From the NCBI RefSeq assembly GCF_027941775.1, contig NZ_CP115917.1, positions 405,001 through 469,000 on the forward strand: a stretch of DNA of 64,000 nt, in the 5' to 3' direction. The position numbers and the translations under genes were made by a program. Below, in pieces: positions 7,046-55,276 of the stretch (its first letter is position 1; each line of letters begins with the position of its first letter). The stretch comes from Tenacibaculum pacificus (lineage in GTDB: Bacteria > Bacteroidota > Bacteroidia > Flavobacteriales > Flavobacteriaceae). Below the pieces are notes generated by a model. It worked only from the letters and a program-made list of their open reading frames with translations. It did not search any database and had not been told where the DNA came from.

Positions 7046-7082
7046 TATCTTTGTTTAATAAAAAATAAAATAAATTGAACAA
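7046..7082 (+). promoter_or_regulatory. Promoter of the B12-MerR gene with overlapping dyad
   Basis: A Bacteroidetes-type -7 element, TATCTTTG, lies at 7046-7053. Overlapping it is TTGTTTA (7051-7057), paired 25 bp further on with TGAACAA (7076-7082), one mismatch from the ideal TAAACAA. The same dyad occurs at the crtI promoter and two satellite promoters. Its right arm covers the TTG start codon. A regulator bound here would block its own transcription, so autoregulation is inferred. No good -33 TTTG at the usual distance was found. Confidence 0.5.
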
Positions 7083-7968
7083 TATAAAGAAGTCATTTAC
7101 AATAAAAGACCTTGAAAATATTTCAGGAATTAAAGCACATACTATTCGTATTTGGGAAAAGCGATATAATTTATTATCGCCAGAAAGAACCGATACGAAT
7201 ATTAGGTATTACTCTTCAGAAAATTTATTGAAATTGTTAAATGTTGTTTTGTTAAATAAAAACAATTACAAAATATCTAAAATTTCACAAATGTCTGATA
7301 AGTCTATTTTGTTAGTGGCAAGAGAGTTGGCTTTTAAAACTGCCATAAGTGATGAGGCTATAAATGCTTTGAAAATGTCAATGTTTCAGTTTGATAAGGT
7401 TTTATTTAATAACACCTATAATCAATTATTAAACAAAAAAACATTTAGAGAAATTTTTAAAGATGTTTTTGTGCCTTTTTTAAATCATATAGGATTATTG
7501 TGGCAAACAGATACATTATTACACGCACACGAACATTTTATATCGAATTTAATAGCTCAGAAAATTCAAATTAGTACTGAAAGATTAGAGTATTCAATAA
7601 TAGATTCAGAGGTTATTTATGTGTTGTTTTTACCCGAAAATGAAATTCATGAATTAGGATTAATGTATTTAAATTATGAATTGGTTTTAAGAGGAAATAA
7701 AACCATATATTTAGGACAAAGTTTACCATTAAGTAATTTGAATTATTTTTTTGAAAGTGATACCGAAGTACGATTTATCACCTCATTAACTGTTCAGCCT
7801 TATGACGATAAAATAATGGATTACTTTCAAGAAATAGAGATAGCTTTAAAAGGTAAAAAACATCAATTTATTGCTGTAGGTAATAAAACATCAAAAGTAA
7901 AAGATGTAAATTTTGAAGCAAATATTTCTCTTTATAGTTCTGTTATAGAGTTTTTAAAAGTTTTGTAA
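7075..7968 (+). CDS. MerR-type regulator with cobalamin-binding domain (CarH/LitR-like photoreceptor)
   Basis: The N-terminus (residues 7-75) is a MerR winged helix with the HTIRIWEKRY signature. Residues about 95-170 match the four-helix bundle and 178-297 the Rossmann B12 domain of CarH-type light sensors. The AdoB12 contact pattern of Thermus CarH is preserved in spacing: W143, then E153-H154 (W-x9-E-H), and a probable lower axial ligand H192 in ENEIHELG. Proteins of this class repress carotenoid genes in the dark and release DNA when light breaks the Co-C bond. The start is TTG at 7075; no upstream ATG is usable. It sits directly upstream of the carotenoid operon. Confidence 0.88.
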   Translation: MNNIKKSFTIKDLENISGIKAHTIRIWEKRYNLLSPERTDTNIRYYSSENLLKLLNVVLLNKNNYKISKISQMSDKSILLVARELAFKTAISDEAINALKMSMFQFDKVLFNNTYNQLLNKKTFREIFKDVFVPFLNHIGLLWQTDTLLHAHEHFISNLIAQKIQISTERLEYSIIDSEVIYVLFLPENEIHELGLMYLNYELVLRGNKTIYLGQSLPLSNLNYFFESDTEVRFITSLTVQPYDDKIMDYFQEIEIALKGKKHQFIAVGNKTSKVKDVNFEANISLYSSVIEFLKVL

Positions 7969-7972
7969 ATAA

Positions 7973-8020
7973 TTTTGTTTAACTAATTTTTGTTTTTGTT
8001 AAACAAAAATTGTAATTTTG
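7973..8020 (+). promoter_or_regulatory. Operator/promoter of the carotenoid operon
   Basis: The elements are -33 TTTG at 7989-7992, -7 TAATTTTG at 8013-8020, and a 20-bp spacer. A perfect 11-bp inverted repeat (TTTTGTTTAAC 7973-7983; GTTAAACAAAA 7998-8008) and a nested one (AATTTTTGTTT 7985-7995; AAACAAAAATT 8001-8011) fill the -33/-7 region. That is where a MerR repressor would compete with polymerase. The core TTGTTTA-N18-TAAACAA is shared with three other promoters in the window. The hairpin could instead terminate the regulator gene, but the overlap with the promoter and the shared spacing favour an operator. Confidence 0.7.
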
Positions 8021-8090
8021 AAAGGTCTAATTACTTTATCTCTTAAATAGCATTAGGTAAGTGAATTATTAATCCTTATAAAATATACAA

Positions 8091-9554
8091 TTGAAAAAAA
8101 CAATACATATAATAGGTTCCGGTTTTTCATCATTATCAGCTTCTTGTTATTTAGCGAAAGCAGGATACGATGTTGTAATTTTAGAAAAAAATGAAACAGT
8201 AGGAGGTAGAGCTCGTCAATTAATAAAAGATGGATTTACTTTTGATATTGGTCCAACGTGGTATTGGATGCCAGATGTTTTTGAGAAGTTTTTTGCGGAT
8301 TTTGGTAAAAAACCATCAGATTATTACGAGCTAGAAAAGTTAGATCCAGCATATCAAGTTTATTTTGATACCGCAGATTCTATAACAATACCAGGTAGCG
8401 TTGAAGAGATTTATGAAATTTTTGAAGCAGAAGAAAAAGGAAGTTCTGTTCATCTAAAAGAGTTTTTAAAATCAGCAGCATATAATTATGATGTTTCTAT
8501 AAACGATTTGGTATATAATCCAGGTGTTTCGCCTTTAGAATTGGTAACTCCTGTTACGATTGGGAAAATAACACAGTTTTTTTCAACGATTAGAAAAGTC
8601 GTTCGTAAAAAAATAAAAAGTAAAAAGTTAATTCAAATTTTAGAGTTTCCTGTTTTGTTTTTAGGTGCAAAACCAAGTAATACTCCTGCTTTTTATAACT
8701 TTATGAATTATGCAGATTTTGTTTTAGGAACTTGGCACCCGAAAGGAGGAATGTATAAAGTTATTGAAGCAATGATAACTTTGGCTAAAGATTTAGGAGT
8801 AACTTTTAAAACTGAAGCCAATGTTGAAGAAATTAAACTTAATCAATCAGGAGAAGCTATTGGTTTAGTAGTAAATGGTGATTTTATTGCTTCGGATATT
8901 GTTTTAAGCGGTGCTGATTATCATCATACAGAAACATTATTACCTAAAGATTATAGACAGTATTCTGAAAAATATTGGGATAAAAAAGTTTTTGCGCCAT
9001 CATCATTATTATTTTATGTTGGTTTTGATAAAAAACTAAAAGATGTTTGTCATCATACATTATTTTTTGATACTGATTTTGACGTACATGCTGCATCAAT
9101 ATATGATAATCCAAGTTGGCCAAAAGATCCGATGTTTTATGCCAGTTTCCCTTCATTAACAGAAGATTCTTTTGCGCCATCAGGTAAAGAAGCAGCTACT
9201 TTTTTAATTCCGATAGCTCCAGGTGTTGAAGATACTCCTGAACTAAGAGAAAAGTACTTTAATTTAATTATCAATAGATTAGAGAAATTAACGCAGCAAT
9301 CTGTGAAAGAAAGTATTATCTTTAAGGAGAGTTTTTGTGTAAAGGATTTTGTGAAAGATTATAACTCGTACAAAGGTAATGCTTACGGATTAGCAAATAT
9401 TTTAACACAAACAGCTTTTTTAAGACCAAAAATAAAAAGTAAAAAAGTAAAGAATTTATTCTTTACAGGACAATTAACGGTTCCAGGGCCGGGTGTACCA
9501 CCGTCATTAATTTCGGGTAAAATAGCTTCAGATTTAATTTTAAAACACCATTAA
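8091..9554 (+). CDS. crtI: Phytoene desaturase
   Basis: This FAD enzyme desaturates phytoene to lycopene. The N-terminus carries the dinucleotide fold IIGSGFSSLSASCYLA followed by VILEKNETVGGRARQ, and the C-terminus carries the CrtI signature FTGQLTVPGPGVPPSLISG. At 487 aa it has the usual length. The start is TTG at 8091, immediately before the FAD motif, after a leader of about 70 nt from the predicted promoter. It is the first gene of an operon running without a gap of more than 23 bp to 21150. Dark repression by the upstream B12-MerR protein is inferred. Confidence 0.95.
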   Translation: MKKTIHIIGSGFSSLSASCYLAKAGYDVVILEKNETVGGRARQLIKDGFTFDIGPTWYWMPDVFEKFFADFGKKPSDYYELEKLDPAYQVYFDTADSITIPGSVEEIYEIFEAEEKGSSVHLKEFLKSAAYNYDVSINDLVYNPGVSPLELVTPVTIGKITQFFSTIRKVVRKKIKSKKLIQILEFPVLFLGAKPSNTPAFYNFMNYADFVLGTWHPKGGMYKVIEAMITLAKDLGVTFKTEANVEEIKLNQSGEAIGLVVNGDFIASDIVLSGADYHHTETLLPKDYRQYSEKYWDKKVFAPSSLLFYVGFDKKLKDVCHHTLFFDTDFDVHAASIYDNPSWPKDPMFYASFPSLTEDSFAPSGKEAATFLIPIAPGVEDTPELREKYFNLIINRLEKLTQQSVKESIIFKESFCVKDFVKDYNSYKGNAYGLANILTQTAFLRPKIKSKKVKNLFFTGQLTVPGPGVPPSLISGKIASDLILKHH

Positions 9555-9556
9555 AA

Positions 9557-10399
9557 ATGAAACAATTATTTGATGAGGTTTCTTATGCTTGTAGTAAGTT
9601 AGTTACTCAAAAATATAGTACTTCTTTTTCTTTAGCTACTAGAATGTTATCGCCTAGCATACGTGATGCTATTTATAATATTTATGGTTTTGTACGTTTT
9701 GCTGATGAAATAGTAGATTCTTTTCACACATATAATAAAGAAGATTTATTAATTAGATTTGAAAATGAGTATTATCTTTCAAAAAAAGAAGGCATTAGTT
9801 TAAATCCTATTTTAAATTCATTTGTTCAAACTGTTGAAAAATATAAAATTACAGATGATTTAATTCAAGCTTTTTTAAAGAGTATGAAAGCAGATTTACA
9901 TCAAACAGAATATACTACAGAAGAAGCATATAAACAATATATTTATGGCTCTGCCGATGTTGTTGGATTAATGTGTTTACGTGTTTTTGTAAATGGTGAT
10001 GCGAATCAATATAATGAGTTAAAAGGTGCTGCAATGCGTTTAGGTTCTGCATTTCAAAAAGTCAATTTTTTAAGAGATTTAAAAGATGATATTCAAGTAT
10101 TGAATCGTTCTTATTTTCCTAATGTAGATCTTAAAGAATTAGACCAAATATCCAAAGAAATTATTATTAAAGATATTGAAGCTGATTTTGACTATGCCTA
10201 TGAAAACGGTATTTTAAAATTACCTGTTGAAGCAAAGTTTGGTGTTTACATGGCGTATCGATATTATAAAAAATTGCTTAATAAATTAAAAGCAACGCCA
10301 TCATCAGAAATAATGGACACAAGAATTAGAATATCAGACCCAATGAAAATTAATTTATTGGCAAGAAGTTATGTGAAATATAAACTAAATCTTATTTAA
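9557..10399 (+). CDS. crtB: Phytoene synthase
   Basis: It condenses two geranylgeranyl diphosphates to phytoene. The two Asp-rich Mg-diphosphate sites of squalene/phytoene synthases are present: FADEIVDSF near residue 54 and NFLRDLKDD near residue 172. At 280 aa it has the normal length. It starts 2 bp after the crtI stop, so the two are co-translated; crtI-crtB is the core of Bacteroidetes carotenoid clusters. No prenyl-diphosphate synthase gene is present in this operon, so precursor supply must come from elsewhere in the genome. Confidence 0.95.
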   Translation: MKQLFDEVSYACSKLVTQKYSTSFSLATRMLSPSIRDAIYNIYGFVRFADEIVDSFHTYNKEDLLIRFENEYYLSKKEGISLNPILNSFVQTVEKYKITDDLIQAFLKSMKADLHQTEYTTEEAYKQYIYGSADVVGLMCLRVFVNGDANQYNELKGAAMRLGSAFQKVNFLRDLKDDIQVLNRSYFPNVDLKELDQISKEIIIKDIEADFDYAYENGILKLPVEAKFGVYMAYRYYKKLLNKLKATPSSEIMDTRIRISDPMKINLLARSYVKYKLNLI

Positions 10400-10400
10400 A

Positions 10401-10847
10401 ATGTTATTTATAATTACAACTCTGGTAACTTTTATAATAATGGAAGCCGTTACTTGGTTTACCCATAAATATATAATGCACGGTTTTGGATGGTATTTAC
10501 ACGAAGACCATCACCAGCCAGGGTATCCAAATGTTTTTGAAAAAAATGATGCATTTTTTGTGGTTTTCGCCATACCGAGTATGTTGTTGTTTTACTTCGG
10601 AATTAATCCCGAATTAAATTATTTGTTTTTTATTGGATTAGGGATTTTATGTTACGGATTAGCGTATTTTTTAATTCACGATGTTTTAATTCACAGACGC
10701 TTTAATTGGTTTAAAAACACGAATAATCAATATTTAAAAGGATTAAGAAAAGCACATAAAATTCATCACAAACACTTAGGTAAACCAGATGGAGAATGCT
10801 TTGGAATGTTGTTTGTTCCGTTTAAATATTTTAAAACAAGACAATAA
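10401..10847 (+). CDS. crtZ: Beta-carotene hydroxylase
   Basis: This is a small membrane di-iron hydroxylase that adds 3-hydroxyls to beta-carotene, giving zeaxanthin. The histidine clusters of the family are visible: THKYIMHG, HEDHHQ, and near the C-terminus HKIHHKH. About four hydrophobic helices span 148 aa. It begins one base after crtB. With the desaturase, synthase and cyclase it suggests that zeaxanthin is a product; a ketolase is not seen in this operon. Confidence 0.92.
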   Translation: MLFIITTLVTFIIMEAVTWFTHKYIMHGFGWYLHEDHHQPGYPNVFEKNDAFFVVFAIPSMLLFYFGINPELNYLFFIGLGILCYGLAYFLIHDVLIHRRFNWFKNTNNQYLKGLRKAHKIHHKHLGKPDGECFGMLFVPFKYFKTRQ

Positions 10848-10861
10848 AAATAATTAAGACA

Positions 10862-11563
10862 ATGAGTGAGTACTTGTATCTAATATTAAATTTAGGAAGT
10901 TTAAGTATTCCTTTAGGTTATAGTGTTTTTGAGAAGAAATTTCATTTTATACAGTTTTTTAAAATAGCATTTATTAGTATTTTATTGATAGCTATTCCGT
11001 TTTTAATTTGGGATGCTTTTTTTACGAAAATTGGTGTTTGGGGTTTTAATGCTGATTATTATTTAGGAATAAAATTATTTGAAATGCCAATTGAAGAATG
11101 GTTGTTTTTCTTTTGTATTCCGTATGCTTGTTTGTTTACGCACGAGGTTTTAAAATATTTAGCACCTCAATTTAAGTTATCTAAGTCGGTAACTATATTG
11201 TTAAGTTTTTTATTGATTTTGATAGCATTTATACTATTGGTTTTCAATTTTGGAAAATGGTACACAACTGTAAATTTCAGTGCTTTTTTAGTATTAATGT
11301 TTTTCGGATTAAAATATAACTTAAAAGCTTTACAGGAATATTATCCGAGCTTTTTGGTTGTTTTAGTTCCTTTTTTAGTAGTAAACGGAATTTTAACAGG
11401 AAGTTTTATTGATGCTCCTGTGGTTTGGTATAACAATGCAGAAAATTTGAATTTTAGAATTTTTACAATTCCTTTTGAAGATGTTTTTTATGCCTTTACT
11501 TTATTATTTTCGATACAATTAATTTTTAATTATCTGAAAAAACAAAAAAATGAAACAAAATAA
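10862..11563 (+). CDS. Lycopene beta-cyclase, membrane CrtYc-CrtYd type
   Basis: This integral membrane protein of 233 aa has about seven hydrophobic helices. Two homologous halves each carry the lycopene cyclase domain motif: PIEEWLFFF in the first half (about residues 77-85) and PFEDVFYAF in the second (about residue 203). This fused heterodimer-like cyclase is common in flavobacteria, in place of the flavoprotein CrtY. It supplies beta-carotene to CrtZ. Its 3' end overlaps the next gene by 14 bp. Confidence 0.88.
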   Translation: MSEYLYLILNLGSLSIPLGYSVFEKKFHFIQFFKIAFISILLIAIPFLIWDAFFTKIGVWGFNADYYLGIKLFEMPIEEWLFFFCIPYACLFTHEVLKYLAPQFKLSKSVTILLSFLLILIAFILLVFNFGKWYTTVNFSAFLVLMFFGLKYNLKALQEYYPSFLVVLVPFLVVNGILTGSFIDAPVVWYNNAENLNFRIFTIPFEDVFYAFTLLFSIQLIFNYLKKQKNETK

Positions 11564-12023
11564 ATACATACGTTTTCTACTATTTTTAGTAGTTAATTTT
11601 TTAGCATTGGCAATTGGCGTTTTATTAATGCAAGATGGTCCAAAAACAGATTGGTATTTATCATTAAATAAAGCACCTTGGACACCTGCTGGGTGGGTTT
11701 TTGGAGCAGCTTGGACTACAATTATGCTATTATTTGCTTTTTACGTGACAAAATTGAGTCTTAAATTTCCTTTTTTAGATAAAAAAATAACACTACTTTT
11801 TAGTGTTCAGTGGATTTTAAATATAGGTTGGAATTACTTTTTTTTCAATCAACATTTAACTCTTATCGGATTAGTAATTATTACTTTATTATGGTTGTTA
11901 ATCGGGTATTTTACCTTTAAAAATTTAAGAGAATTAAAAGGGATTACATTATTTATACTTCCATATTTAATATGGATGACTATTGCAACAAGTTTAAACG
12001 CCTACATCGTATTTTATAATTAA
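11550..12023 (+). CDS. TspO/MBR family tryptophan-rich sensory protein
   Basis: A 157-aa protein with five predicted helices and the family's Trp-rich segments (NKAPWTPAGWVFGAAWT near residue 38, and later Trp residues). TspO proteins bind porphyrins and similar ligands, and in photosynthetic bacteria they modulate pigment gene expression. In this carotenoid operon a role in tetrapyrrole or photo-oxidative stress handling is plausible but not shown. It overlaps the cyclase gene by 14 bp and lies 4 bp before the TetR-like gene. Confidence 0.9.
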   Translation: MKQNKYIRFLLFLVVNFLALAIGVLLMQDGPKTDWYLSLNKAPWTPAGWVFGAAWTTIMLLFAFYVTKLSLKFPFLDKKITLLFSVQWILNIGWNYFFFNQHLTLIGLVIITLLWLLIGYFTFKNLRELKGITLFILPYLIWMTIATSLNAYIVFYN

Positions 12024-12027
12024 AATT

Positions 12028-12681
12028 ATGGGAAATCAAGAAATTATTACAGAAGATAAAATTATAGAATTGTATATGGACACGGTTTTAATTTCAGGAA
12101 AACCAGCCTCTATTTACGCTTTTGCTCAAAAAAATGAGTTTGAAGAGTCTGAATTTTACAAATATTTTTCAAGTTTTGAAAATTTAGAAAAATCAATATT
12201 TGGGGTTTTTGCAAAAGAAACAATTCACTTGTTACATAAAACAGAAGCTTATAAAGATTATACATCAAAAGATAAATTATTAAGTTTTTATTTTACTTTT
12301 TTTGAATTATTAACAGCAAACAGATCGTATGTTTTATTACAATTTCAGCATATAAAATCAGATTTTTCAAAACTATCAGTTTTAAAAGAATTACGTTCAG
12401 AATTTCTAAAATATGTTAGTAACATTGAATTAGAAAAAATTGATTTTAAGAATGATAAAATCAATAAAATTCAAGATAAAACAATAACCGAAGCTTATTG
12501 GTTACAGTTATTAATGATTTTAAAATTTTGGATTGATGATAAATCTTCAAACTTCGAAAAAACAGATGTTTTTATTGAAAAATCAATTAAAGTAGCTTTT
12601 GATATTCAGCAAATAACTCCCGTAAAAAGCGTTATTGATTTAGCGAAATTTTTATGGAAAGAAAAAGGAACTTCAGTATGA
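12028..12681 (+). CDS. TetR-like regulatory protein
   Basis: The first 60 residues resemble a TetR helix-turn-helix (SIYAFAQKNEFEESEFYKYFSSFENLEKSIF), and the rest is helical, fitting a ligand-binding domain of this superfamily (217 aa). The DNA-binding half is divergent, so DNA binding is not certain. Its stop overlaps the start of the ABC1 kinase gene (ATGA), and this pair recurs in flavobacteria. It may regulate or modulate the kinase module rather than the whole operon; this is inference. Confidence 0.7.
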   Translation: MGNQEIITEDKIIELYMDTVLISGKPASIYAFAQKNEFEESEFYKYFSSFENLEKSIFGVFAKETIHLLHKTEAYKDYTSKDKLLSFYFTFFELLTANRSYVLLQFQHIKSDFSKLSVLKELRSEFLKYVSNIELEKIDFKNDKINKIQDKTITEAYWLQLLMILKFWIDDKSSNFEKTDVFIEKSIKVAFDIQQITPVKSVIDLAKFLWKEKGTSV

Positions 12682-13988
12682 AAAGATTAGATAAAATACC
12701 CACGTCAAAAATAGAAAGAACAACTAAATTAGTTACTACAGGACTAAAATTAGGTGTAAACTATGCAAAGTATTACGGAAATAAAATCACAAAATCGGAA
12801 GAAGAAGCAAGAGCGCAGTTAAATGAAGATAATGCAACCGATATTTATGATGGTTTAAAAGAATTAAAAGGTTCGGCATTAAAAGTAGCGCAGATGTTAA
12901 GCGTGGAAAAGAATTTATTGCCAAGTGCTTATGTTGAAAAATTTTCGTTATCACAATTTTCTGTTCCGCCACTTTCAGGACCTTTAGTAGTTAAAACTTT
13001 TAAAAAATATTTTAACAAAACACCTGAAGATGTTTTTGATACGTTTACAGCAGAATCTGTAAATGCAGCAAGTATCGGGCAGGTTCACAGAGCTACGATA
13101 GGCGAAAAAGTATTGGCTGTTAAAATTCAATATCCTGGTGTTGCTAATAGTATTTCTACAGATTTAGCATTGGTAAAACCGATTGCGATGAAAATGTTCA
13201 ATATAAGAGGCGAAGGTTCTGATGAATACTTTAAAGAAGTTGAAAATAAGTTATTAGAAGAAACTAATTACGTTTTAGAGTTAGCACAGAGTAACGAAAT
13301 AACGAATGCTTGTGCACATATTCCAAATTTAAAATTTCCGAAATATTACGAAGAGTTTTCTACGGATAGAATTTTAACAATGGATTGGATGGATGGAATT
13401 CATTTATCTGAATTTACATCAAAAGGATATGATGAACAAACGGCAAATAAATTAGGACAAGCTTTATGGGATTTTTATATGTATCAAATGCATACTATAA
13501 AAAAAGTTCATGCCGACCCGCATCCTGGTAATTTTTTGGTATCCAAAGAAAACGATTTAATTGTTATCGATTTTGGATGTATGAAAGAAGTGCCAATGGC
13601 TTTTTATACCCCATACTTCGAATTAGCTAAACGTGAAAATATTGAAAATCCTACTTTTTTTGAAAGTAAATTATATGAATTAGAAATTTTGAAAAAAGAC
13701 GATTCCGAAGAAGAAAAAGCCTTTTTTAAAGAATTGTTTTACGAAATGTTGTATTTATTTACATCGCCTTTTCAGCAAGAATATTTTGATTTTTCTGATG
13801 GTGTTTTCTTTGGTAAAATAGCCGATTTAGGACAAAAATATGCAAAAAGTACTGAGCTTAAAAAAATGAACGGTAACAGAGGTTCGAAACATTTTATTTA
13901 TATCAACAGAACATTTTTTGGTTTGTATAATTTAATGCACGATTTAAAATCGACTCATATAAAAATTAATAATTATAAGAATTTATAA
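12678..13988 (+). CDS. ABC1/UbiB-family atypical kinase
   Basis: The ABC1 signatures are clear: LKGSALKVAQMLS (the KxGQ-like region, here KVAQ), AASIGQVHRA, an invariant-Lys-like AVKIQYPG, HADPHPGNF in the catalytic loop, and VIDFGCM as the metal-binding motif. Family members support quinone synthesis and, in plastids, prenyl-lipid metabolism, which fits the carotenoid and oxidative-stress setting. The start is set at 12678 (ATGA overlap with the upstream stop) rather than at an upstream ATG inside that gene. The protein is 436 aa. Confidence 0.88.
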   Translation: MKRLDKIPTSKIERTTKLVTTGLKLGVNYAKYYGNKITKSEEEARAQLNEDNATDIYDGLKELKGSALKVAQMLSVEKNLLPSAYVEKFSLSQFSVPPLSGPLVVKTFKKYFNKTPEDVFDTFTAESVNAASIGQVHRATIGEKVLAVKIQYPGVANSISTDLALVKPIAMKMFNIRGEGSDEYFKEVENKLLEETNYVLELAQSNEITNACAHIPNLKFPKYYEEFSTDRILTMDWMDGIHLSEFTSKGYDEQTANKLGQALWDFYMYQMHTIKKVHADPHPGNFLVSKENDLIVIDFGCMKEVPMAFYTPYFELAKRENIENPTFFESKLYELEILKKDDSEEEKAFFKELFYEMLYLFTSPFQQEYFDFSDGVFFGKIADLGQKYAKSTELKKMNGNRGSKHFIYINRTFFGLYNLMHDLKSTHIKINNYKNL

Positions 13989-14600
13989 ATGCATTTATCA
14001 AGAAAAGCTATAGATAAGATGAATCATCTGTATAAAATAAATTTAATGAACAGTATTTCTGGTTATAAACCAGCAAATTTAATTGCTACAAAATCGGAAG
14101 ATGGAATTAGTAATGTAGCTGTTTTTAGTTCTGTAGTTCATTATGGTTCTAGTCCTGCAATTTTAGGGTTTGTTTTGCGTCCGACAACCGTAGCTAGAAA
14201 TACCTATGATAACATTAAAAAAACGGGTTTTTATACTATAAATGCTATTAATGAAGCAATTATTGAAGATGCACATCATACATCAGCAAAATATCCGTCA
14301 GGAGTTTCGGAGTTTGATAAAACGGATTTAACGGAAGCTTATAAAGATGATTTTTTTGCACCTTATGTGGCAGAATCGCCCATAAAAATAGGAATGAAAT
14401 TTTTAGAAGAACATCATATAAAAGTAAACGGAACTATTTTAATCTTAGGTGAAGTAACCGATTTGTATTTTAAAGATTCAATGCTTTCTGAGGATGGTTT
14501 TTTAAATTTATCCGAAGAAAAAATTGCAGCAATTAATGGTTTAGATACCTATATGGTTGCAAAAGAATATCAAAGATTATCATATCAAAGACCAAAATAA
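13989..14600 (+). CDS. Flavin reductase-like / FMN-binding split-barrel protein
   Basis: The 203-aa sequence matches the flavin-reductase-like split barrel: NLIATKSEDGISNVAVFSS near residues 26-44, FVLRP near residue 61 and FYTINAI near residue 80. Proteins of this type bind FMN and reduce flavins or act as small oxidoreductases. The gene abuts the kinase gene directly. A flavin-handling enzyme fits an operon that ends in FAD-dependent CrtI and photolyase functions, but its substrate is unknown. Confidence 0.8.
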   Translation: MHLSRKAIDKMNHLYKINLMNSISGYKPANLIATKSEDGISNVAVFSSVVHYGSSPAILGFVLRPTTVARNTYDNIKKTGFYTINAINEAIIEDAHHTSAKYPSGVSEFDKTDLTEAYKDDFFAPYVAESPIKIGMKFLEEHHIKVNGTILILGEVTDLYFKDSMLSEDGFLNLSEEKIAAINGLDTYMVAKEYQRLSYQRPK

Positions 14601-14622
14601 ACGAATGTAAAACATCAAGAAA

Positions 14623-16011
14623 ATGAAAATTTTAATCACAGGAACAACAGGATATATAGCAAAAAGATTGGTATTGAAATTATTAGATGCTGGTCATGAA
14701 TTAATATGCTGTGTCCGTGATTTAAAACGAATTCCTGATGAAATAGAATACAAAGATAATATTTCATTTATAAAAGTTGATTTTTTACAGACCGAACAAA
14801 TTGTTTTTCCTTCGGATATTGATGTTGCGTATTATCTGATTCATTCTATGGCTACGGATGCTAATAATTTTGAAGATTTAGAGCAAACTTGCGCTAAGAG
14901 CTTTAAAAATATTATTGAAAAAACAAACTGTAAGCAAGTCATTTATTTAAGTGGTATTGTAAACGATAGTTCTTTATCTAAGCATTTAGCTTCTCGTTTT
15001 CAGGTAGAGAAAAATTTAGCTTCAAAAAAATATGCATTGACCACTTTTAGAGCAGGAATTATTGTTGGAAGTGGTAGTGCATCCTTTGAAATTATTAGAG
15101 ACATTGTTGAAAAATTACCCGTAATGGTTACGCCAAAATGGTTGAATACAAAATCGCAACCAATTGCAATTAGAGATGTATTAATTTTTTTAGAACGTGC
15201 CGTTGGAAATGAAAAATTGTATAACAAATCCTTTGATATTTGTGGTACAGAAGTACTTACTTATAAAGAAATGCTTTTACAATTTGGAGAGGTAAGAGGC
15301 TTTAAGCGTTACATTTTAACATTACCACTTTTAACGCCAAAATTATCGTCGTATTGGTTATACTTTGTAACTTCTACGTCTTTTAATTTAGCACAAGCTT
15401 TGGTAGATAGTATGAAAGTTGAGGTAATTGCCAAGCCAAGTAATATTAATCAAATTTTAAATATATCGCCTATTTCTTATAAAGAATCGGTTGATTTAGC
15501 TTTTCAAAGAATAGAACAAAACGCTGTAATATCAAGTTGGAAAGATGCAATCAGTAGCGGTGTTTTTCAAGCTCAATTATCGGATTATATTCAAATACCA
15601 CAATATGGTTGTTTTGTAGATAAACGTACTATAAAAGTTTCTGATGATGCTTTTACACTTGATAAAATTTGGTCGATTGGAGGAAAAAATGGTTGGTATA
15701 GTTTTAATTGGTTATGGAAAATAAGAGGTTATGCCGATAAAATTTTCGGAGGAGTTGGCTTGCGTAGAGGAAGAACACACGATACATCATTAGAAGCTGG
15801 TGACCCATTAGATTTTTGGCGTGTTTTATTGGCTGATAAAAAAGAAAAAAGACTTTTGTTATTTGCAGAAATGAAATTACCTGGCGAAGCTTGGTTAGAA
15901 TTTAAAATAGTAAATGACACTTTACATCAAAAAGCAGTTTTCAGACCTAAAGGAGTTTTAGGGCGTCTGTATTGGTATTCCGTTTTACCATTTCAATGCT
16001 TTTGTATTTAA
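14623..16011 (+). CDS. NAD(P)-binding SDR/DUF2867-type protein, C-terminus frameshifted
   Basis: The N-terminus is an atypical SDR Rossmann fold (ITGTTGYIAKRLV) and the C-terminal part matches the DUF2867 region (FGGVGLRRGR, FWRVLLADK). As written, the frame ends at 16011 after CCA TTT CAA TGC. Removing one A (15995 or 15996) restores CCA TTT CAT GCT and reads on to a TGA at 16052-16054. That gives 476 aa and a 4-bp ATGA overlap with the next gene, the spacing seen elsewhere in this operon. The frameshift is therefore likely an error or very recent. The reaction is unknown. Confidence 0.8.
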   Translation: MKILITGTTGYIAKRLVLKLLDAGHELICCVRDLKRIPDEIEYKDNISFIKVDFLQTEQIVFPSDIDVAYYLIHSMATDANNFEDLEQTCAKSFKNIIEKTNCKQVIYLSGIVNDSSLSKHLASRFQVEKNLASKKYALTTFRAGIIVGSGSASFEIIRDIVEKLPVMVTPKWLNTKSQPIAIRDVLIFLERAVGNEKLYNKSFDICGTEVLTYKEMLLQFGEVRGFKRYILTLPLLTPKLSSYWLYFVTSTSFNLAQALVDSMKVEVIAKPSNINQILNISPISYKESVDLAFQRIEQNAVISSWKDAISSGVFQAQLSDYIQIPQYGCFVDKRTIKVSDDAFTLDKIWSIGGKNGWYSFNWLWKIRGYADKIFGGVGLRRGRTHDTSLEAGDPLDFWRVLLADKKEKRLLLFAEMKLPGEAWLEFKIVNDTLHQKAVFRPKGVLGRLYWYSVLPFQCFCI

Positions 16012-16050
16012 AGGAATGATAAACGCTTTGGTAAAAAATAATCAAAAATT

Positions 16051-16317
16051 ATGAATCACAGAGATATAGATAGAATAATAGAAATGGCTTGGGAAGATAG
16101 AACCACATTCGATGCTATAAAGTTTCAATTTGGTTTAAAAGAGCAACAAGTAATTGAATTAATGCGTAAAGAATTAAAACTGTCTAGTTTTAAATTATGG
16201 AGAGCAAGAGTTCAAGGACGTTCAACTAAACATCAAGCAAAACGAATTTTCGAAAAAGGAAGGTTCAAATGTACAAGGCAAAAAAGTATTAGTAATAATA
16301 AAGTTTCTAAGAGATAA
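16051..16317 (+). CDS. TIGR03643 family protein
   Basis: An 88-aa basic protein starting MNHRDIDRIIEMAWEDRT, with FGLKEQQVIELMRKELK and LWRARVQGRSTKH. It matches the TIGR03643 family as I remember it, which often sits near cryptochrome/photolyase genes. The middle resembles a helix-turn-helix and the tail is Lys/Arg-rich, so nucleic acid binding is possible. Its start overlaps the restored stop of the upstream gene. The function is not established. Confidence 0.75.
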   Translation: MNHRDIDRIIEMAWEDRTTFDAIKFQFGLKEQQVIELMRKELKLSSFKLWRARVQGRSTKHQAKRIFEKGRFKCTRQKSISNNKVSKR

Positions 16318-16322
16318 AATAA

Positions 16323-16733
16323 ATGAATAAAATAGCTATTACAAGAAGAGAACATTTTAATGCTGCTCACAGACTTCATAATCATAATTGGTCAATAGAG
16401 AAAAATAAAGAAGTATTCGGTAAATGTAATAATGAAAATTACCATGGTCATAATTACGATTTAGAAGTAACTATTATTGGTGAAATTAATCCTGAAACAG
16501 GATATGTAATAGATACCAAGATACTTTCGAATCATATTAAAAGAGAAATACTAGAGCCTTTTGATCATAAAAACTTAAATCTTGATACAGAAGATTTTGA
16601 GTTTTTAAATCCAACTGTAGAAAATATTGCAGTTGTAATTCATAATAAATTAAAAAAAGTAATAAGTAACGATTTAGAAATAAAAATTAAACTATATGAA
16701 ACAGCCAGAAACTTTGTTGAATATCCCTATTAA
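16323..16733 (+). CDS. 6-pyruvoyl-tetrahydropterin synthase / QueD-family protein
   Basis: The 136-aa T-fold protein has the zinc histidines HRLHNHNW near residue 16 and HGHNYDLEV near residue 40, plus the Cys of KCNNENYHGHNY. QueD family members act on dihydroneopterin triphosphate, the FolE product, giving either 6-pyruvoyl-tetrahydropterin or the queuosine intermediate. The neighbours (folE overlapping its 3' end by 38 bp, an SDR two genes on) and the absence of queC/queE favour a pterin cofactor role over queuosine, but this is inference. Confidence 0.85.
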   Translation: MNKIAITRREHFNAAHRLHNHNWSIEKNKEVFGKCNNENYHGHNYDLEVTIIGEINPETGYVIDTKILSNHIKREILEPFDHKNLNLDTEDFEFLNPTVENIAVVIHNKLKKVISNDLEIKIKLYETARNFVEYPY

Positions 16734-17391
16734 AAATGGTTATAACGGTTTGTCTGTAGAAGAGATAGGAGATAATCATTTATCAATAGGTATTGATACA
16801 CCAATGACACCTGATGCATTTTTAATGTCAGATAAAGAAAAGAAGCAAAAAATAGCAATGCTTTTTAAAGAAATTATGCAAACGATGGGTTTAGACTTAA
16901 ATGACGATTCGTTAAAAGGTACCCCAAATAGAGTTGCAAAAATGTATATAGATGAAATATTTTCAGGGTTAAATCCAGAAAATAAACCCAAAATAGCATT
17001 GTTTGATAACAAGTATCAATATAATCAGATGTTGGTAGAAAAAGATATTACTTTTTACTCTAATTGTGAACATCATTTTGTTCCAATAATAGGAAAAGCA
17101 CATATAGCTTATATATCATCAGGAAAAGTAATAGGACTATCTAAATTAAACAGAATAGTACAATATTATGCAAAACGTCCACAAGTACAAGAGCGTTTAA
17201 CTAATCAAATTGCAACAGATTTAAAACAGATATTAGACACCGAAAATGTTGCAGTAATAATAGATGCAAAACATTTATGTGTATCATCTAGAGGAGTAGA
17301 GGATAATGCATCATCTACTTTAACTTGTTATTATGGAGGTGTTTTTAATACTTCAGAGAAAATTGTTGAACTTCAAAATTATTTAAAATGA
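16696..17391 (+). CDS. folE: GTP cyclohydrolase I (operon copy)
   Basis: It converts GTP to 7,8-dihydroneopterin triphosphate, the first step of folate and biopterin synthesis. The zinc and catalytic motifs are intact: SNCEHHFVPI and KHLCVSSRG. The 231-aa protein has a short variable N-terminus (residues 1-35) that aligns in layout with the second copy at 50607. The two copies are nearly identical from DDSLKGTPNRVAKMYIDE to the end. The start overlaps the PTPS gene by 38 bp. folE-PTPS-SDR in one light-associated operon suggests synthesis of a reduced pterin, possibly as cofactor or chromophore. Confidence 0.95.
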   Translation: MKQPETLLNIPIKNGYNGLSVEEIGDNHLSIGIDTPMTPDAFLMSDKEKKQKIAMLFKEIMQTMGLDLNDDSLKGTPNRVAKMYIDEIFSGLNPENKPKIALFDNKYQYNQMLVEKDITFYSNCEHHFVPIIGKAHIAYISSGKVIGLSKLNRIVQYYAKRPQVQERLTNQIATDLKQILDTENVAVIIDAKHLCVSSRGVEDNASSTLTCYYGGVFNTSEKIVELQNYLK

Positions 17392-17612
17392 GCACATTAA
17401 ATTTAGTAGAAGAAGCATTAGATTTTGAAAAAAATCACAAATCTTTTAGAACAAGAAACGAAAAAATAGTAGCTTCTAGAAAAGCTAAAGAAATAGTTTT
17501 AGCTATAAATGAAATTTATAAGAAAAGTAGAGATAAAAAATTAATGGATATTATGAAGCGTATTACATTGATTAAACAGAAAATTGAAAAAAGGTTAAAA
17601 GGAAGATTATGA
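17388..17612 (+). CDS. Conserved small protein of the light operon
   Basis: A 74-aa, highly charged, helical protein (about 30% Lys+Arg) with no signal peptide or membrane segment. It overlaps both neighbours by 4 bp (folE stop and SDR start), so it is certainly translated as part of the operon if the operon is expressed. I do not recognise a domain. It could be a nucleic-acid-binding or partner subunit for one of its neighbours. Confidence 0.6.
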   Translation: MSTLNLVEEALDFEKNHKSFRTRNEKIVASRKAKEIVLAINEIYKKSRDKKLMDIMKRITLIKQKIEKRLKGRL

Positions 17613-18286
17613 AAACAATTGTAGTAGTAGGAGGTAGCTCGGGTATCGGAAAAGCTATTGTAAATAAATTAAAAGATACACATAAAATCATCAATATAAG
17701 TAGAACAGTACCCGAAGAACACGAAAATGTAACGCATTATTCATGTGATGTTTTAAATGATGAATTACCAGTTTTAGAAGATATTAATGGATTGGTATAT
17801 TGTCCTGGAAGTATCAATTTAAAATCATTTACGCGACTTAAAATTGCCGATTTTAAAACTGATTTTGAAATAAATGTTATAGGAGCAATCAATACTTTAA
17901 AAGCATACGAAACTAGTTTGGCAAAAAACAACGGAAGTGTTGTATTATTTAGTACAGTTGCTTCTGCTTTAGGAATGCCTTTTCACGCAAGTATTGCTAC
18001 AAGTAAATCGGCAGTTGAAGGCTTAACAAAATCGTTAGCGGCAGAGTATGCAACTAAAATTCGTTTTAACGCTATTGCTCCAACCGTAACAGATACGCCA
18101 CTTGCAAAGCGTTTGTTAAGAAACGAAAAGCAACAAGAGAGTATGCAAGACAGGCATCCGCTAAAAAAATATTTAACGCCACAAGAAGTAGCAGGTTTGG
18201 CTAGTTATTTATTATCAGAGGATGCAAGTTCAATAACAGGGCAAATTATTCCTATGGATGCAGGAATTGTAAGTGTAAAATTATAA
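17609..18286 (+). CDS. Short-chain dehydrogenase lacking the canonical tyrosine
   Basis: A classical-length SDR (225 aa) with the NAD(P) motif GGSSGIGKA near residue 8, INV near residue 90, and IAPTVTDTP. At the catalytic YxxxK position it reads SIATSK: Lys is kept but Tyr is Ile, so the usual Ser-Tyr-Lys triad is incomplete. It follows PTPS and folE, so a sepiapterin- or pteridine-reductase-like role was considered. The missing Tyr argues for another chemistry or a non-catalytic role. It overlaps the small upstream gene by 4 bp. Confidence 0.85.
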   Translation: MKTIVVVGGSSGIGKAIVNKLKDTHKIINISRTVPEEHENVTHYSCDVLNDELPVLEDINGLVYCPGSINLKSFTRLKIADFKTDFEINVIGAINTLKAYETSLAKNNGSVVLFSTVASALGMPFHASIATSKSAVEGLTKSLAAEYATKIRFNAIAPTVTDTPLAKRLLRNEKQQESMQDRHPLKKYLTPQEVAGLASYLLSEDASSITGQIIPMDAGIVSVKL

Positions 18287-18296
18287 TTGTACTCGA

Positions 18297-18821
18297 ATGA
18301 AATGGCTAATTTTATTCACTATTTTTTTATGTATGAATGATGAGGTAATAATTTTTGATAAAAATACAATTCCCAAAAACTGGATTATAACAAATGATGA
18401 TGTTATGGGAGGAGTATCTACATCATCTATGAAATTGAATAACGATAAACAACTTGTTTTTTCGGGAGCTGTTTCTTTAGATAATAACGGCGGTTTTGCA
18501 ATGACAAGATTACCTATCGCTATTAATTTTGATGATAAAAAAACAAATCTAGTTATAAAGTTAAAAGGCGATGGTAAAAATTATCAGTTTAGAATAAAAG
18601 CCAAAGAAGACCAGCGTTTCTGGTATGTGCAATCGTTTGAAACTACTAATAAATCAACAGAAATTGTTTTGCCTTTAAATAAGTTTTATGCATCTTTTAG
18701 AGGATATTCATTAAATGTAGCTAATTTTTCGGCAACTACTATTTCGGAAATAGCAATTCTGATAGGTAACAAAAAGAACGAAAAATTTAATGTATCAATA
18801 GAAAAAATAACGCTTCAGTAA
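18297..18821 (+). CDS. CIA30-family protein
   Basis: The 174-aa sequence fits the complex I intermediate-associated protein 30 (CIA30) beta-sandwich: WIITNDDVMGGVSTSS near residue 30, FSGAVSLDNNGGFA near residue 56, and FRIKAKEDQRFWY in the middle. Its N-terminus is hydrophobic, so it may be exported, though no clear cleavage site is seen. Bacterial CIA30 proteins have no firm function; the fold resembles carbohydrate-binding domains. It lies 10 bp after the SDR gene. Confidence 0.75.
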   Translation: MKWLILFTIFLCMNDEVIIFDKNTIPKNWIITNDDVMGGVSTSSMKLNNDKQLVFSGAVSLDNNGGFAMTRLPIAINFDDKKTNLVIKLKGDGKNYQFRIKAKEDQRFWYVQSFETTNKSTEIVLPLNKFYASFRGYSLNVANFSATTISEIAILIGNKKNEKFNVSIEKITLQ

Positions 18822-19388
18822 ATGAAAATAGTTAAAATAACTTTACTTATAACTTTATCAATAATACTACTTATGACACTATTTAGTTTTTTATCAAATT
18901 CGGAAACAGTATCTCCTAATCAATCTTTATATGACATAGAAATTAAAGGAATTGATGGAAAAAAATTAGATTTAAATCAATATAAAGGTAAAAAAATATT
19001 ATTTGTAAATGTTGCCTCTAAATGTGGATTTACAAAGCAATATGATGGATTACAAGAATTATCATCAAAATATACTGATAAATTAGTAGTCATCGGTTTG
19101 CCGTGTAATCAATTTGGAGCACAAGAACCTGGAGAGGCATCAGAAATAAAATCATTTTGTAAGTTAAATTTTGGAGTAGATTTTCCATTAACCGAAAAAA
19201 TAGCCGTTAAAGGAGAAGAGAAACATCCGTTATATCAATGGTTAACTGAAAAAGAAAAAAATGCAAAAATGGATTCGTCTGTAAAATGGAATTTTCAAAA
19301 ATATTTAGTTGATGAAGAAGGAAGATTAATTGATATTTTCTACTCAATTACAAAACCAATGAGTTCTAAAATAACAAGCCTTTTATAA
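18822..19388 (+). CDS. Glutathione-peroxidase-family thiol peroxidase, membrane-anchored or exported
   Basis: The peroxidatic Cys68 lies in ASKCGFTKQY, with the family blocks LPCNQFGAQEPG and KWNFQKYLVD. A second Cys in EIKSFCKLNFG is the usual resolving residue of thioredoxin-dependent family members. Residues 5-24 form a single hydrophobic segment, so the enzyme probably faces the periplasm, unlike the second copy at 51370, which lacks it. It abuts its neighbours with no gap. A role in removing lipid peroxides formed in light is inferred from context. Confidence 0.9.
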   Translation: MKIVKITLLITLSIILLMTLFSFLSNSETVSPNQSLYDIEIKGIDGKKLDLNQYKGKKILFVNVASKCGFTKQYDGLQELSSKYTDKLVVIGLPCNQFGAQEPGEASEIKSFCKLNFGVDFPLTEKIAVKGEEKHPLYQWLTEKEKNAKMDSSVKWNFQKYLVDEEGRLIDIFYSITKPMSSKITSLL

Positions 19389-19874
19389 ATGATGAATTTT
19401 AAAAAACACTCAGGAATTTATACGCTAGAAACAGCACAAGAATTAAAAATGCCGTTAGAAAAAGCATGGGATTATTTTTCATCACCAGAAAATTTAGCAA
19501 AAATTACGCCCAAAAAAATGGGTTTTAATATCACTTCAAAAGTTGATAAAAAAGCATATCCTGGGCAAATAATAACGTATAAAGTATCGCCTGTTCCGTT
19601 TGTGAAAACAAATTGGGTAACAGAAATAACGCAAGTAAAAGAACAAGCTTTTTTTATTGATGAGCAACGTTTCGGACCTTATTCAATGTGGCATCACGAA
19701 CATTTTTTTGAAGCCTTGCCAAACGGAAATACCTTAATGAAAGATAAAATTTCCTATAAAATACCGTTCGGTTTTTTAGGACATATAGCACAAGCTCTTT
19801 TTATCAAAAAACAATTAAAAAGTATTTTCGAATATCGATTTATAATTTTAGAAAAAATGTTTAATGGTAAATAA
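19389..19874 (+). CDS. SRPBCC-family ligand-binding protein
   Basis: A 161-aa protein with the START/SRPBCC layout: a beta strand with amphipathic helix LEKAWDYFSSPENLAKITP near residue 24, then GPYSMWHHEHFFE and a C-terminal long helix. Such proteins bind hydrophobic ligands or act as cyclases. In photolyase clusters of other bacteria the same type of protein often precedes the photolyase gene. It overlaps that gene here by 11 bp. The ligand is unknown. Confidence 0.82.
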   Translation: MMNFKKHSGIYTLETAQELKMPLEKAWDYFSSPENLAKITPKKMGFNITSKVDKKAYPGQIITYKVSPVPFVKTNWVTEITQVKEQAFFIDEQRFGPYSMWHHEHFFEALPNGNTLMKDKISYKIPFGFLGHIAQALFIKKQLKSIFEYRFIILEKMFNGK

Positions 19875-21150
19875 ATTAGCGATATTTTGGTTTCGTAGAG
19901 ATTTGCGTTTAGAAGATAACGTAGCTTTATTTAATGCTTTAAATTCATCAAATAAAGTACTGCCGATATTTATTTTTGATGAAGAAATTTTAGATAAATT
20001 GCCAGAAAACGATGCCCGAGTTTCATTTATTTATCAAAGATTACAGCAGTTAGATACCGATTTAAAAGTAGTCGGTTCATCTTTATTGATAAAAAAAGGA
20101 AATCCTCTTGAAGTTTGGAAAACAATAATTTCGGAGTTTGATATTTCAGCAGTTTATACAAATAAAGATTACGAACCGTATGCCTTACAAAGAGATGCAG
20201 AAATTAGCGATTTTTTAAAATCAAAAAGTATTAATTTTTTAAACTATAAAGACCAAGTTATTTTTGAAAAATCTGAGGTTACCAAAAATGACGGATTACC
20301 ATATACCATTTATACGCCCTATAAAAATAAGTGGTTGCAGAAATTTAATGCCGAAGAAGATTTAAAAAATCATGATATAAATTTTAATAATTTTTATCAA
20401 TTTACATCAGAAATACCTTCTTTAAAATTTATAGGATTTAACGAAAGTAGTATAAAAGTACCCCCTTATAATTTATCAAATTTAACAAATTACGATGAAA
20501 TTCGTGATTTTCCTTTCATCGATAAAACATCTTATTTATCGCCTTATTTTCGTTTCGGATTGGTAAGTGTTCGTAAAATGGTGCAATTTGCTTTAAAAAC
20601 CAATGCAACTTTTTTAAACGAACTGATTTGGCGAGAATTTTTTATGCAAGTATTATTTCATTTTCCCAAAGTGGTTACGAATAATTTTAAGCAAAAATAC
20701 GATGCCGTTCCGTGGAGAAATAACGAAGCCGAATTTGAAAAATGGTGTAAAGGAGAAACGGGTTATCCGATGGTTGATGCAGGTATGCGACAGTTAAATA
20801 AAACGGGGTATATGCACAATCGGGTACGCATGATTACGGCAGGTTTTTTATGTAAACATCTGTTAATTGATTGGCGTTGGGGCGAAGCTTATTTTGCCGA
20901 AAAACTATTAGATTACGAATTGTCGGCAAACAACGGAAACTGGCAATGGGCAGCAGGAACGGGTTGCGATGCTGCGCCATATTTTAGAGTTTTTAATCCT
21001 GAAGCACAATTAAAAAAGTTCGATAAAGATTTACAATATATTAGAAAATGGATTGAAAATTTTGATGAATTAACCTATCCACAGCCAATGGTTGAACATA
21101 AATTTGCCCGAGAAAGAGCAATTTCGACTTATAAAGAAGCATTAAATTAA
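19864..21150 (+). CDS. Cryptochrome/photolyase family protein, class I CPD photolyase type
   Basis: The N-terminal Rossmann-like antenna domain starts IFWFRRDLRLEDN; the FAD-binding helical domain follows, with WREFFMQ, CKGETGYPMVDAGMRQL, MHNRVRM and NWQWAAGTGCDAAPYFRVFNP. The Asn-rich and Trp-rich motifs at the flavin and lesion pocket are those of class I photolyases. At 428 aa it is slightly shorter than the E. coli enzyme. It probably repairs cyclobutane pyrimidine dimers with light. It is the last gene of the crtI operon, followed 10 bp later by a strong terminator. Confidence 0.92.
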   Translation: MVNKLAIFWFRRDLRLEDNVALFNALNSSNKVLPIFIFDEEILDKLPENDARVSFIYQRLQQLDTDLKVVGSSLLIKKGNPLEVWKTIISEFDISAVYTNKDYEPYALQRDAEISDFLKSKSINFLNYKDQVIFEKSEVTKNDGLPYTIYTPYKNKWLQKFNAEEDLKNHDINFNNFYQFTSEIPSLKFIGFNESSIKVPPYNLSNLTNYDEIRDFPFIDKTSYLSPYFRFGLVSVRKMVQFALKTNATFLNELIWREFFMQVLFHFPKVVTNNFKQKYDAVPWRNNEAEFEKWCKGETGYPMVDAGMRQLNKTGYMHNRVRMITAGFLCKHLLIDWRWGEAYFAEKLLDYELSANNGNWQWAAGTGCDAAPYFRVFNPEAQLKKFDKDLQYIRKWIENFDELTYPQPMVEHKFARERAISTYKEALN

Positions 21151-21160: not shown

Positions 21161-21196
21161 AAAAAGGTTCAAAGAATTAAATCTTTGAACCTTTTT
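21161..21196. terminator. Bidirectional terminator at the end of the light operon
   Basis: Arms 21161-21175 and 21182-21196 pair perfectly over 15 bp around a 6-nt loop, with A-run and T-run flanks on both strands. It closes the operon after the photolyase gene. It can also serve the convergent alaS gene, although a repeat element lies between it and alaS. Confidence 0.85.
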
Positions 21197-50493: not shown

Positions 50494-50538
50494 TTGTTTA
50501 CTCTTTTTGTGTTTTTATTAAACAATTGTTTAGCTTTG
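50494..50538 (+). promoter_or_regulatory. Operator/promoter of the second folE
   Basis: TTGTTTA (50494-50500) and TAAACAA (50519-50525) form the same dyad, with the same 25-bp offset, as at crtI. The right arm extends into a 14-bp palindrome TAAACAATTGTTTA (50519-50532). -33 TTTG lies at 50506-50509 and -7 TAGCTTTG at 50531-50538. The -7 starts 12 bp after the right arm start (13 at crtI). Repression by the B12-MerR regulator is inferred. Confidence 0.68.
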
Positions 50539-51305: not shown

Positions 51306-51369
51306 TTTTATTACTTTTTTCTGAATTTTATTTATCAATAATAATTAATCATTTGTATTAGAAAAAACG

Positions 51370-54806: not shown

Positions 54807-54971
54807 TTAATTAAGTTTTTCTATTTTTAGCATAACTTCTTCTGCTTCAAAACTTTTTTTATCACTCATTTTTCTATTTGTTGTAGATAGTGTATGTGCT
54901 TCTTTTAAAAGTTTTTCATATTGATATTGAAGTTTTTCTTTTTCTGTTTTCTTTTTAAATATTCCAAACAT
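54807..54971 (-). CDS. Lacal_2735-family small protein
   Basis: A 54-codon frame (MFGIFKKKTEKEKLQYQYEK at the start, ending KIEKLN). It matches the Lacal_2735 family as I know it: MFG-[IL]-FKKK start, then LLKEAHTLSTTNRK and a second short helix. It is predicted to be all-helical and cytoplasmic. It is the first gene of the minus-strand photolyase-related unit, about 45 bp after the predicted promoter. No function is known. Confidence 0.75.
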   Translation of the reverse strand: MFGIFKKKTEKEKLQYQYEKLLKEAHTLSTTNRKMSDKKSFEAEEVMLKIEKLN

Positions 54972-55014: not shown

Positions 55015-55058
55015 TAAAGATAATAAATGTTTAATTAATTTTATAATTTGTTAAACAA
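55015..55058 (-). promoter_or_regulatory. Operator/promoter of the photolyase-related unit
   Basis: Read on the minus strand: TTGTTTA (55058-55052), 25 bp on TAAACAT (55033-55027, one mismatch to TAAACAA), then a -7-like TATCTTTA (55022-55015) starting 11 bp after the right arm start. The geometry is the same as at crtI and folE. The minus-strand gene Lacal_2735 starts at 54971. A -33 TTTG is not clear. Confidence 0.55.

Positions 55059-55203: not shown

Positions 55204-55276
<73 letters not shown>

Follow-up and report, generated by a model that had tools for sequence, protein, structure and literature searches.

The DNA stretch under study, in the following called the window, comprises 64,000 nucleotides of the Tenacibaculum pacificus genome. 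Near its start it contains a gene for a regulator with a MerR and a B12-binding domain, which is followed by a dyad in the promoter of a long operon with carotenoid, pterin and photolyase genes. Similar dyads are found at the start of the regulator gene and at two further promoters. The features are as follows:

7046..7053, + strand: −7 box of the regulator promoter, TATCTTTG, with a TTG that also belongs to the left arm of the next dyad (sequence)
7051..7082, + strand: predicted autoregulatory dyad with 1 mismatch, its right arm TGAACAA overlapping the TTG start codon at 7075 (pattern scan, matrix)
7075..7968, + strand: gene for a CarH-type regulator with a MerR winged helix and a B12-binding domain, start codon TTG (Pfam, alignments, PDB sequence match, model/Foldseek)
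7973..8008, + strand: predicted operator dyad of the crtI operon, TTTTGTTTAAC (7973-7983)-N14-GTTAAACAAAA (7998-8008) (direct reading, matrix, alignment)
7990..7992, + strand: −33 TTG of the crtI promoter, within the dyad spacer (sequence, Bacteroidota promoter grammar)
8013..8020, + strand: −7 box of the crtI promoter, TAATTTTG, 6 bp beyond the dyad core (sequence)
8091..21150, + strand: 18-gene operon (ORFs, Pfam families, gene order)
21161..21196, + strand: terminator-like hairpin of 15 pairs (4 G-C) with a T-rich tail, directly after the photolyase gene
50494..50525, + strand: second exact dyad (pattern scan, matrix), with a −7 box TAGCTTTG at 50531-50538
55027..55058, − strand: third promoter dyad with 1 mismatch (pattern scan, matrix), with a −7-like box TATCTTTA at 55015-55022 on the minus strand

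The Dyad in the crtI Promoter

A preliminary description of this DNA had reported the motif TTGTTTA-N18-TAAACAA within a perfect 11-bp inverted repeat, lying across the crtI promoter and directly downstream of the B12-MerR gene, and all three statements were verified. Direct reading revealed that TTTTGTTTAAC and GTTAAACAAAA are perfect inverted copies of each other over 11 bp and lie 14 bp apart, and a pattern scan of the window located the exact core within this repeat at 7975-8006. The regulator gene ends 6 bp before this core. The dyad spans the −33 element and much of the promoter spacer, and its core ends 6 bp short of the −7 box.

Promoters of the Bacteroidota have a TTG element at −33. 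In the crtI promoter this element is separated from the −7 box by 20 nt, a spacing that is presumably ordinary. A generic sigma-70 scan stayed at the level of shuffled sequences (75 matches versus 75.6), as expected because the bacterium uses another promoter type; an excerpt of PMC9723704 gives the −7 box of the Bacteroidota as TAnnTTTG. In an alignment of the window with eight relatives the left-arm sequence TGTTTA was identical in 9/9 and the right arm TAAACAA in 7/9 sequences, and the flanks diverged. T. dicentrarchi and T. ovolyticum have a TANNTTTG box at the same place as the crtI −7 box. Judged from the position of this box, the crtI leader (8009-8090) is apparently long in this species and its close relatives, about 65-70 nt; in several other genomes of the family the operator abuts the crtI start codon. 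A plasmid search gave no match.

The operon contains, in this order, crtI, crtB, and genes for a crtZ-like hydroxylase, a lycopene cyclase, TspO, a TetR-like protein (12028), an ABC1 kinase, a flavin reductase, an SDR-DUF2867 protein, a DUF2805 protein and PTPS, then folE, a 74-aa ORF (17388-17612), and genes for an SDR, CIA30, GPx, an unknown protein of 161 aa and a photolyase; the crt names are based on Pfam families and gene order, not on a crt-specific search. The operon had been described as 18 genes long and reaching to 21150. This was corroborated, with the 74-aa ORF included in the count: every intergenic gap is at most 40 bp, and the hairpin follows the last gene. Six terminator-like sites were found in the region, compared with 4.2 expected in shuffles, and the stem at 21161-21196 was by far the longest. 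Pterin genes (PTPS, two copies of folE, SDRs) and two glutathione peroxidase genes are present in clusters that are preceded by the dyad (16323-17391, 50607-51894). This suggests light-induced pterin synthesis, perhaps for a photolyase antenna or for redox cofactors.

The Adjacent Gene Encodes a Regulator of the CarH Type

The regulator was found to have an N-terminal MerR winged helix (PF13411, E 7.6e-15, Pfam), and its best PDB profile matches were CarH proteins (E 5e-15). According to excerpts of PMC8156234, CarH homologues are defined by the B12 motif and the Wx9EH motif in combination, and CarA lacks the latter. Both motifs are present in the regulator. In alignments of 14 and of 31 sequences, including that of the window, the ExHxxG cobalamin-binding motif (E190, H192, G195) was invariant, as were W143 and E153 of the Wx9EH motif, which lies over the adenosyl group; H154 was invariant in the 14 sequences and conserved in at least 90% of the 31. 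An AlphaFold model had a mean pLDDT of 87.7. Its top Foldseek matches, and thus its best matches among solved structures, were those of full-length Thermus thermophilus CarH, 5c8f and 5c8e (E 3e-12, TMq 0.50–0.57, with the domains turned), and many B12-domain structures matched at TMt 0.75–0.81. The model has the CarH fold, that is, a helix bundle and a Rossmann B12 domain. Signature motifs and structural matches thus bear out the earlier assignment of the regulator to the CarH type.

The protein is 96% identical to its T. dicentrarchi counterpart. The genome contains an open copy of a gene for a PduO-type cobalamin adenosyltransferase (1110243-1110746), and therefore the chromophore could come from imported cobalamin. 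A second cobalamin adenosyltransferase-like sequence was present in two pieces with a stop (genome positions 1047589-1048102).

Co-occurrence of the Dyad and the Regulator

The exact motif TTGTTTA-N18-TAAACAA was searched for in 149 genomes of the family, which was taken as Flavobacteriaceae from the named relatives. It was detected 292 times, compared with 37 matches of the reversed control and 29 of the motif with N17; the latter total and the regulator and site counts were compiled by hand from listings. The presence of an exact site was strongly associated with that of the regulator (Fisher p 1.6e-14, with genomes treated as independent): sites were found in 105 of the 111 genomes with a close regulator homologue (six had none), in 3/9 with a divergent homologue and in 7/29 without one, two genomes with a MerR-domain match only being counted as regulator-negative. 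The seven regulator-negative genomes hold 14 sites, half of them in one fragmented genome.

A similar result was obtained for the remainder of the class, which we take to be Bacteroidia. Outside of the family, 112 regulator-positive genomes had 128 sites (in 71 genomes) versus 17 for the control, and 80 regulator-negative genomes had 10 sites (in nine genomes) versus 14. Among the matches listed, which came from 32 distant genomes, 16 of the 24 regulator-positive ones had a site at most 400 bp from the regulator gene and eight had no site beside it. The pairing of dyad and regulator thus extends through the class.

A Dyad at the Start Codon of the Regulator Gene

The best 80 named loci, which had been selected by the regulator protein alone, were scanned for the dyad with up to one mismatch and with spacings from 10 to 26. 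At spacing 18, the region around the regulator start gave 52 matches (in 51/80 loci), and the first 250 bp behind the stop codon gave 36 (in 33/80). Every other spacing yielded at most five matches, and spacing 18 was absent from 3-kb control stretches. With up to one mismatch, 29 of these 80 loci were without an N18 site at the start and 47 without one within 250 bp after the stop. TTGTTTA was located at exactly −24 relative to the start codon in 59/80 of these loci, and a TANNTTTG box ending on TTGTTTA was present in 72/80, a number that is in part subject to the caveat that this TTG belongs to the left arm.

Read in codons, the right arm TGAACAA covers the last two bases of the start codon, all of codon 2 and most of codon 3. 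In the best 80 named loci codon 2 was AAC in 73 cases and AAT in one, compared with 539 AAC and 1178 AAT codons in the rest of the same genes; the sequences are related, so that these are not 74 independent events. The bias towards AAC is a constraint at the DNA level within a coding sequence, because selection on the protein alone would not favor AAC over its synonym AAT. Taken together, the co-occurrence across genomes, the adjacency and the site at the regulator's start codon lend strong support to the earlier proposal that the dyad is the predicted operator of the adjacent regulator.

Sites in the Window and in the Genome

The preliminary description had listed the same dyad at three more promoters. 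The dyad at 50494 (no mismatch) precedes folE2 (50607-51305), a GPx gene (51370-51894) and a 139-aa ORF. The dyad at 55027 (one mismatch) precedes a 54-aa ORF (54807-54971), a DUF2452 gene (54391-54792) and a photolyase-related DPRP gene (53098-54237), and in two relatives a dyad also lies 201–233 bp before DUF2452. Between the 55027 dyad and DsbD-like genes there is a tandem pair of tRNA-Met(CAT) genes that almost adjoin each other (55204-55277 and 55394-55467). The third candidate is the dyad at 7051 (one mismatch).

A genome scan with at most one mismatch, which had been proposed as a check, discriminated only weakly. In the genome, a single contig of 2.79 Mb, 16 sites were found versus 11 for the reversed control, and 6 of the 15 inspected were located within genes; one site within a gene, at 44052, looks like a chance match. 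When up to three mismatches were allowed, the window contained 42 sites versus 38.6 expected in shuffles, which is no enrichment. The counting of mismatches was near chance at both settings and was dropped as a test; therefore, the analysis was based instead on exact sites, on controls with altered spacing or reversed pattern, and on a matrix. Exact sites did separate from the control in the genome, with two versus none, and both of them are in the window. The matrix, a sequence-only covariance model of 40 positions, was built from 58 sites of relatives and none of the window. Its top four places in the whole genome were 7975, 55027, 50494 and 7051 (E 7.8e-6, 2.9e-4, 1.0e-3 and 2.1e-3), and thus the three additional candidates rank directly with the crtI site. 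Rank 5 (695882-695912; about 1501-1531 of locus L201; E 0.007) lies upstream of a gene for an ECF-like sigma factor, at a distance of about 140 bp, and has no obvious connection to light; it may connect the regulon to a sigma cascade, or may be due to chance.

Position of the Dyad Relative to the −7 Box

The position of the −7 box was analyzed with 93 unique exact sites, i.e., 186 orientations; seven loci judged to be chance matches (in genes or with an unlike spacer) were omitted, which biases the counts towards the motif. The −7 consensus TANNTTTG was found at dyad position 17 in 35/186 orientations and at positions 37–39 in 11/186. Other offsets had 0–3 matches each, except −4 (24/186). The −4 register was dropped as evidence, as the arm supplies the TTG and the chance expectation is almost as high by our own arithmetic. 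At 37/93 sites none of the three registers contained a consensus −7 box. In one frequent layout, the −7 box thus lies within the dyad; in another, seen at crtI and folE2 here, the dyad sits just upstream of the box, over the −33 element. With both layouts, a bound protein would be expected to exclude RNA polymerase.

The half-site TnnACA was in excess at offset 5 (40/186), and spacer composition was biased towards A18/A20 in the 61 of 66 sites that were used, a selection that again favors the motif. Both features are read as the embedded −7 box. Additional 11-bp direct repeats hidden in the spacer were also considered and were rejected, because TnnACA occurred 11 bp from the arms in only 2 + 1 of 186 orientations versus a background of 1.2.

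Predicted Target Genes in Relatives Include Rhodopsin Genes

The gene context was analyzed for 66 of the 292 exact sites of the family, among the matches listed. Three of these were within genes, and 59 had a gene start at most 250 bp away. At 22 sites the downstream gene was homologous to a gene of one of the light clusters of the window, compared with 2/88 ORFs facing the sites. These 22 were crtI (8), the 161-aa photolyase neighbor (5), TetR-like (3), SDR-DUF2867 (2), DUF2452 (2), flavin reductase (1) and folE (1). Other targets (30 proteins, Pfam) comprised proteins with a fasciclin domain, MsrA, HSP90-like, fatty-acid desaturase, TonB-plug, DUF4397 and Porph_ging proteins as well as a rhodopsin; several had no Pfam match. 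Many of the predicted targets in relatives (fasciclin, HSP90, Porph_ging) lack an established role in light responses. The operator recurs in nine loci at genes divergent from a gene of 395–412 aa, which was tRNA methyltransferase/MnmA-like in the two loci tested. Five of these nine loci encode fasciclin-domain proteins, and the others were assigned by layout only.

Rhodopsin genes were analyzed separately, with 28 of 30 matches in the family (one broken and one below the cut-off were omitted; one other had no upstream DNA). An N18 dyad with up to one mismatch was present at 15/28 genes, 39–99 bp before the first ATG. The upstream regions contained 16 matches at spacing 18, compared with five at all other spacings combined. 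The dyad preceded 13/21 rhodopsin genes in genomes in which the regulator was found and 2/6 in those in which it was not, both from assemblies that are less than 82% complete. A −7-like box at position 16 was seen in 13/26 rhodopsin dyads. Tandem dyads with starts 34–44 bp apart occur at some rhodopsin promoters and one fasciclin promoter (six loci); at one of them one copy is weaker.

In 36 named genomes, eight had rhodopsin matches, 11 in total. Eight of these genes were grouped as proteorhodopsin-type by score and length, and seven had the dyad with at most one mismatch, i.e., those of Spongiivirga citrea, Kordia aestuariivivens, Pelagihabitans pacificus, Maribacter spongiicola, Polaribacter irgensii 23-P (one mismatch), Polaribacter sp. 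BAL334 and Gillisia limnaea. The eighth, that of Aureicoccus marinus, had two mismatches. The three further matches in these genomes, two longer rhodopsins and one fragment, lacked the N18 dyad. The family search gave no rhodopsin match in the T. pacificus genome. The regulon postulated earlier is thus backed by the four window sites, the best in the genome, and by relatives that carry the motif before the same kinds of genes and additionally before rhodopsin genes.

Discussion

The most probable reading, to which we assign a probability of roughly 0.86, is that the adjacent CarH-type AdoCbl photoreceptor-repressor uses the dyad as its operator and is released from it by light; the site is predicted from the DNA and the light release by analogy to the CarH family. 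In the dark, the B12-loaded regulator would occupy the two inverted TnnACA half-sites, 25 bp apart from center to center, and would block the access of RNA polymerase to the −33 and −7 elements. Light would break the cobalt-carbon bond, the oligomer would fall apart, and the operon would be transcribed, as known for the family. The dyad copy that covers the −7 box and the start codon of the regulator gene may enable the regulator to repress its own synthesis. The predicted regulon comprises the 18-gene carotenoid/pterin/photolyase operon, the folE2-GPx genes and the DUF2452-photolyase-related cluster, and in relatives probably also other photoprotective genes and proteorhodopsin.

The regulator resembles CarH of T. 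thermophilus and Bacillus megaterium, as it has MerR and AdoCbl domains and both signature motifs. Operator similarities include the half-site TnnACA in each arm (TAAACA, and TGAACA at the regulator start), in accordance with the published half-site nnnnTnnACAn (excerpt of PMC9304148), and the overlap with carotenoid promoter elements. In excerpts of PMC8156234 and PMC9304148, the operators of T. thermophilus and B. megaterium are described as three or four tandem 11-bp direct repeats. In contrast, the dyad consists of two inverted half-sites 25 bp apart, without tandem repeats, and the predicted regulon reaches beyond crt genes. As an 11-bp repeat in the same direction is missing, the dyad is not classed as a CarH tandem direct-repeat operator. 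It is a variant of the CarH operator and not in contradiction to the published ones, because plasticity of CarH operators has been documented (PMC9304148, excerpt). CarA and CarH of Myxococcus xanthus and Cystobacter belong to the same protein family. For the crt operator of M. xanthus, inverted repeats that cover the −35 element and the DNA upstream of it have been described, although the accessible passages of PMC9304148 suggest that also CarA recognizes direct repeats and not the inverted ones. Here, by comparison, many families of one class share the inverted repeat with its fixed N18 spacing. Chryseobacterium lacus is, like T. pacificus, a member of the Bacteroidota with crt genes, and their induction by light has been reported; its regulator may differ, since the authors report no car/lit genes, according to an excerpt of PMC7064467.

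The main uncertainty concerns the signal, not the site. The regulator could bind the dyad and respond to the B12 status (or to redox) instead of light, and thus be a B12-responsive or CarA-like repressor. A light response is not readable from sequence, and CarA of M. xanthus works without B12 (PMC8156234, excerpt). This explanation is nevertheless regarded as improbable, since the Wx9EH motif, which CarA lacks according to the same excerpt, is invariant or nearly so in this regulator family, and the targets include photolyase, carotenoid and rhodopsin genes. Furthermore, excerpts of PMC9040609 report that proteorhodopsin is light-responsive in strains of Dokdonia, as are cryptochrome and photolyase in one strain, which agrees with an operator released by light.

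MerR proteins can activate as well as repress, and the regulator might thus bend the promoter within the dyad like classical MerR proteins. Family membership and the +17 register, which places the −7 box within the dyad, are in line with this. The classical MerR operator is a single pseudo-palindrome of about 18–23 bp in a long −35/−10 spacer; here, the arms span 32–36 bp and several promoter registers occur. At the regulator gene the dyad extends from the −7 box to beyond the start codon, a position implausible for activation, and the 20-nt spacing of the crtI elements appears ordinary. Activation is therefore considered very unlikely. That the dyad belongs to another factor, e.g., the TetR-like protein encoded at 12028 within the operon (tetR genes are also among the targets in relatives), or is an AT-rich chance repeat, as its chance-level frequency at up to three mismatches might suggest, can be virtually dismissed in view of its association with and adjacency to the B12-MerR gene throughout the class, of the peak at spacing 18 and of the constraint within the regulator coding sequence.

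CarH itself and the control of crt genes by CarH were known before. Among the matches listed of a literature search in the main texts of open-access papers, this operator, a CarH regulon of the Bacteroidota and a CarH-controlled proteorhodopsin were unreported, and a regulator of the light-responsive proteorhodopsin and photolyase expression of flavobacteria was not named. An excerpt of PMC8582858 names CarH and proteorhodopsin in unrelated passages, and a query with the arm letters returned unrelated titles only. The analysis offers a concrete candidate regulator, a defined operator and a list of targets for the flavobacterial light response, and for CarH proteins an operator geometry unlike the tandem repeats in the cited excerpts of PMC8156234 and PMC9304148. 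We regard it as fairly probable that in the Flavobacteriaceae, and perhaps in much of the class, one B12 photoreceptor with an inverted-repeat N18 operator switches a sunlight regulon that includes proteorhodopsin, a proton pump driven by light. If this is true, a single B12-dependent light switch governs phototrophy, photoprotection and the photorepair of DNA. The analysis also suggests that the supply of B12 could gate the light response of these bacteria.
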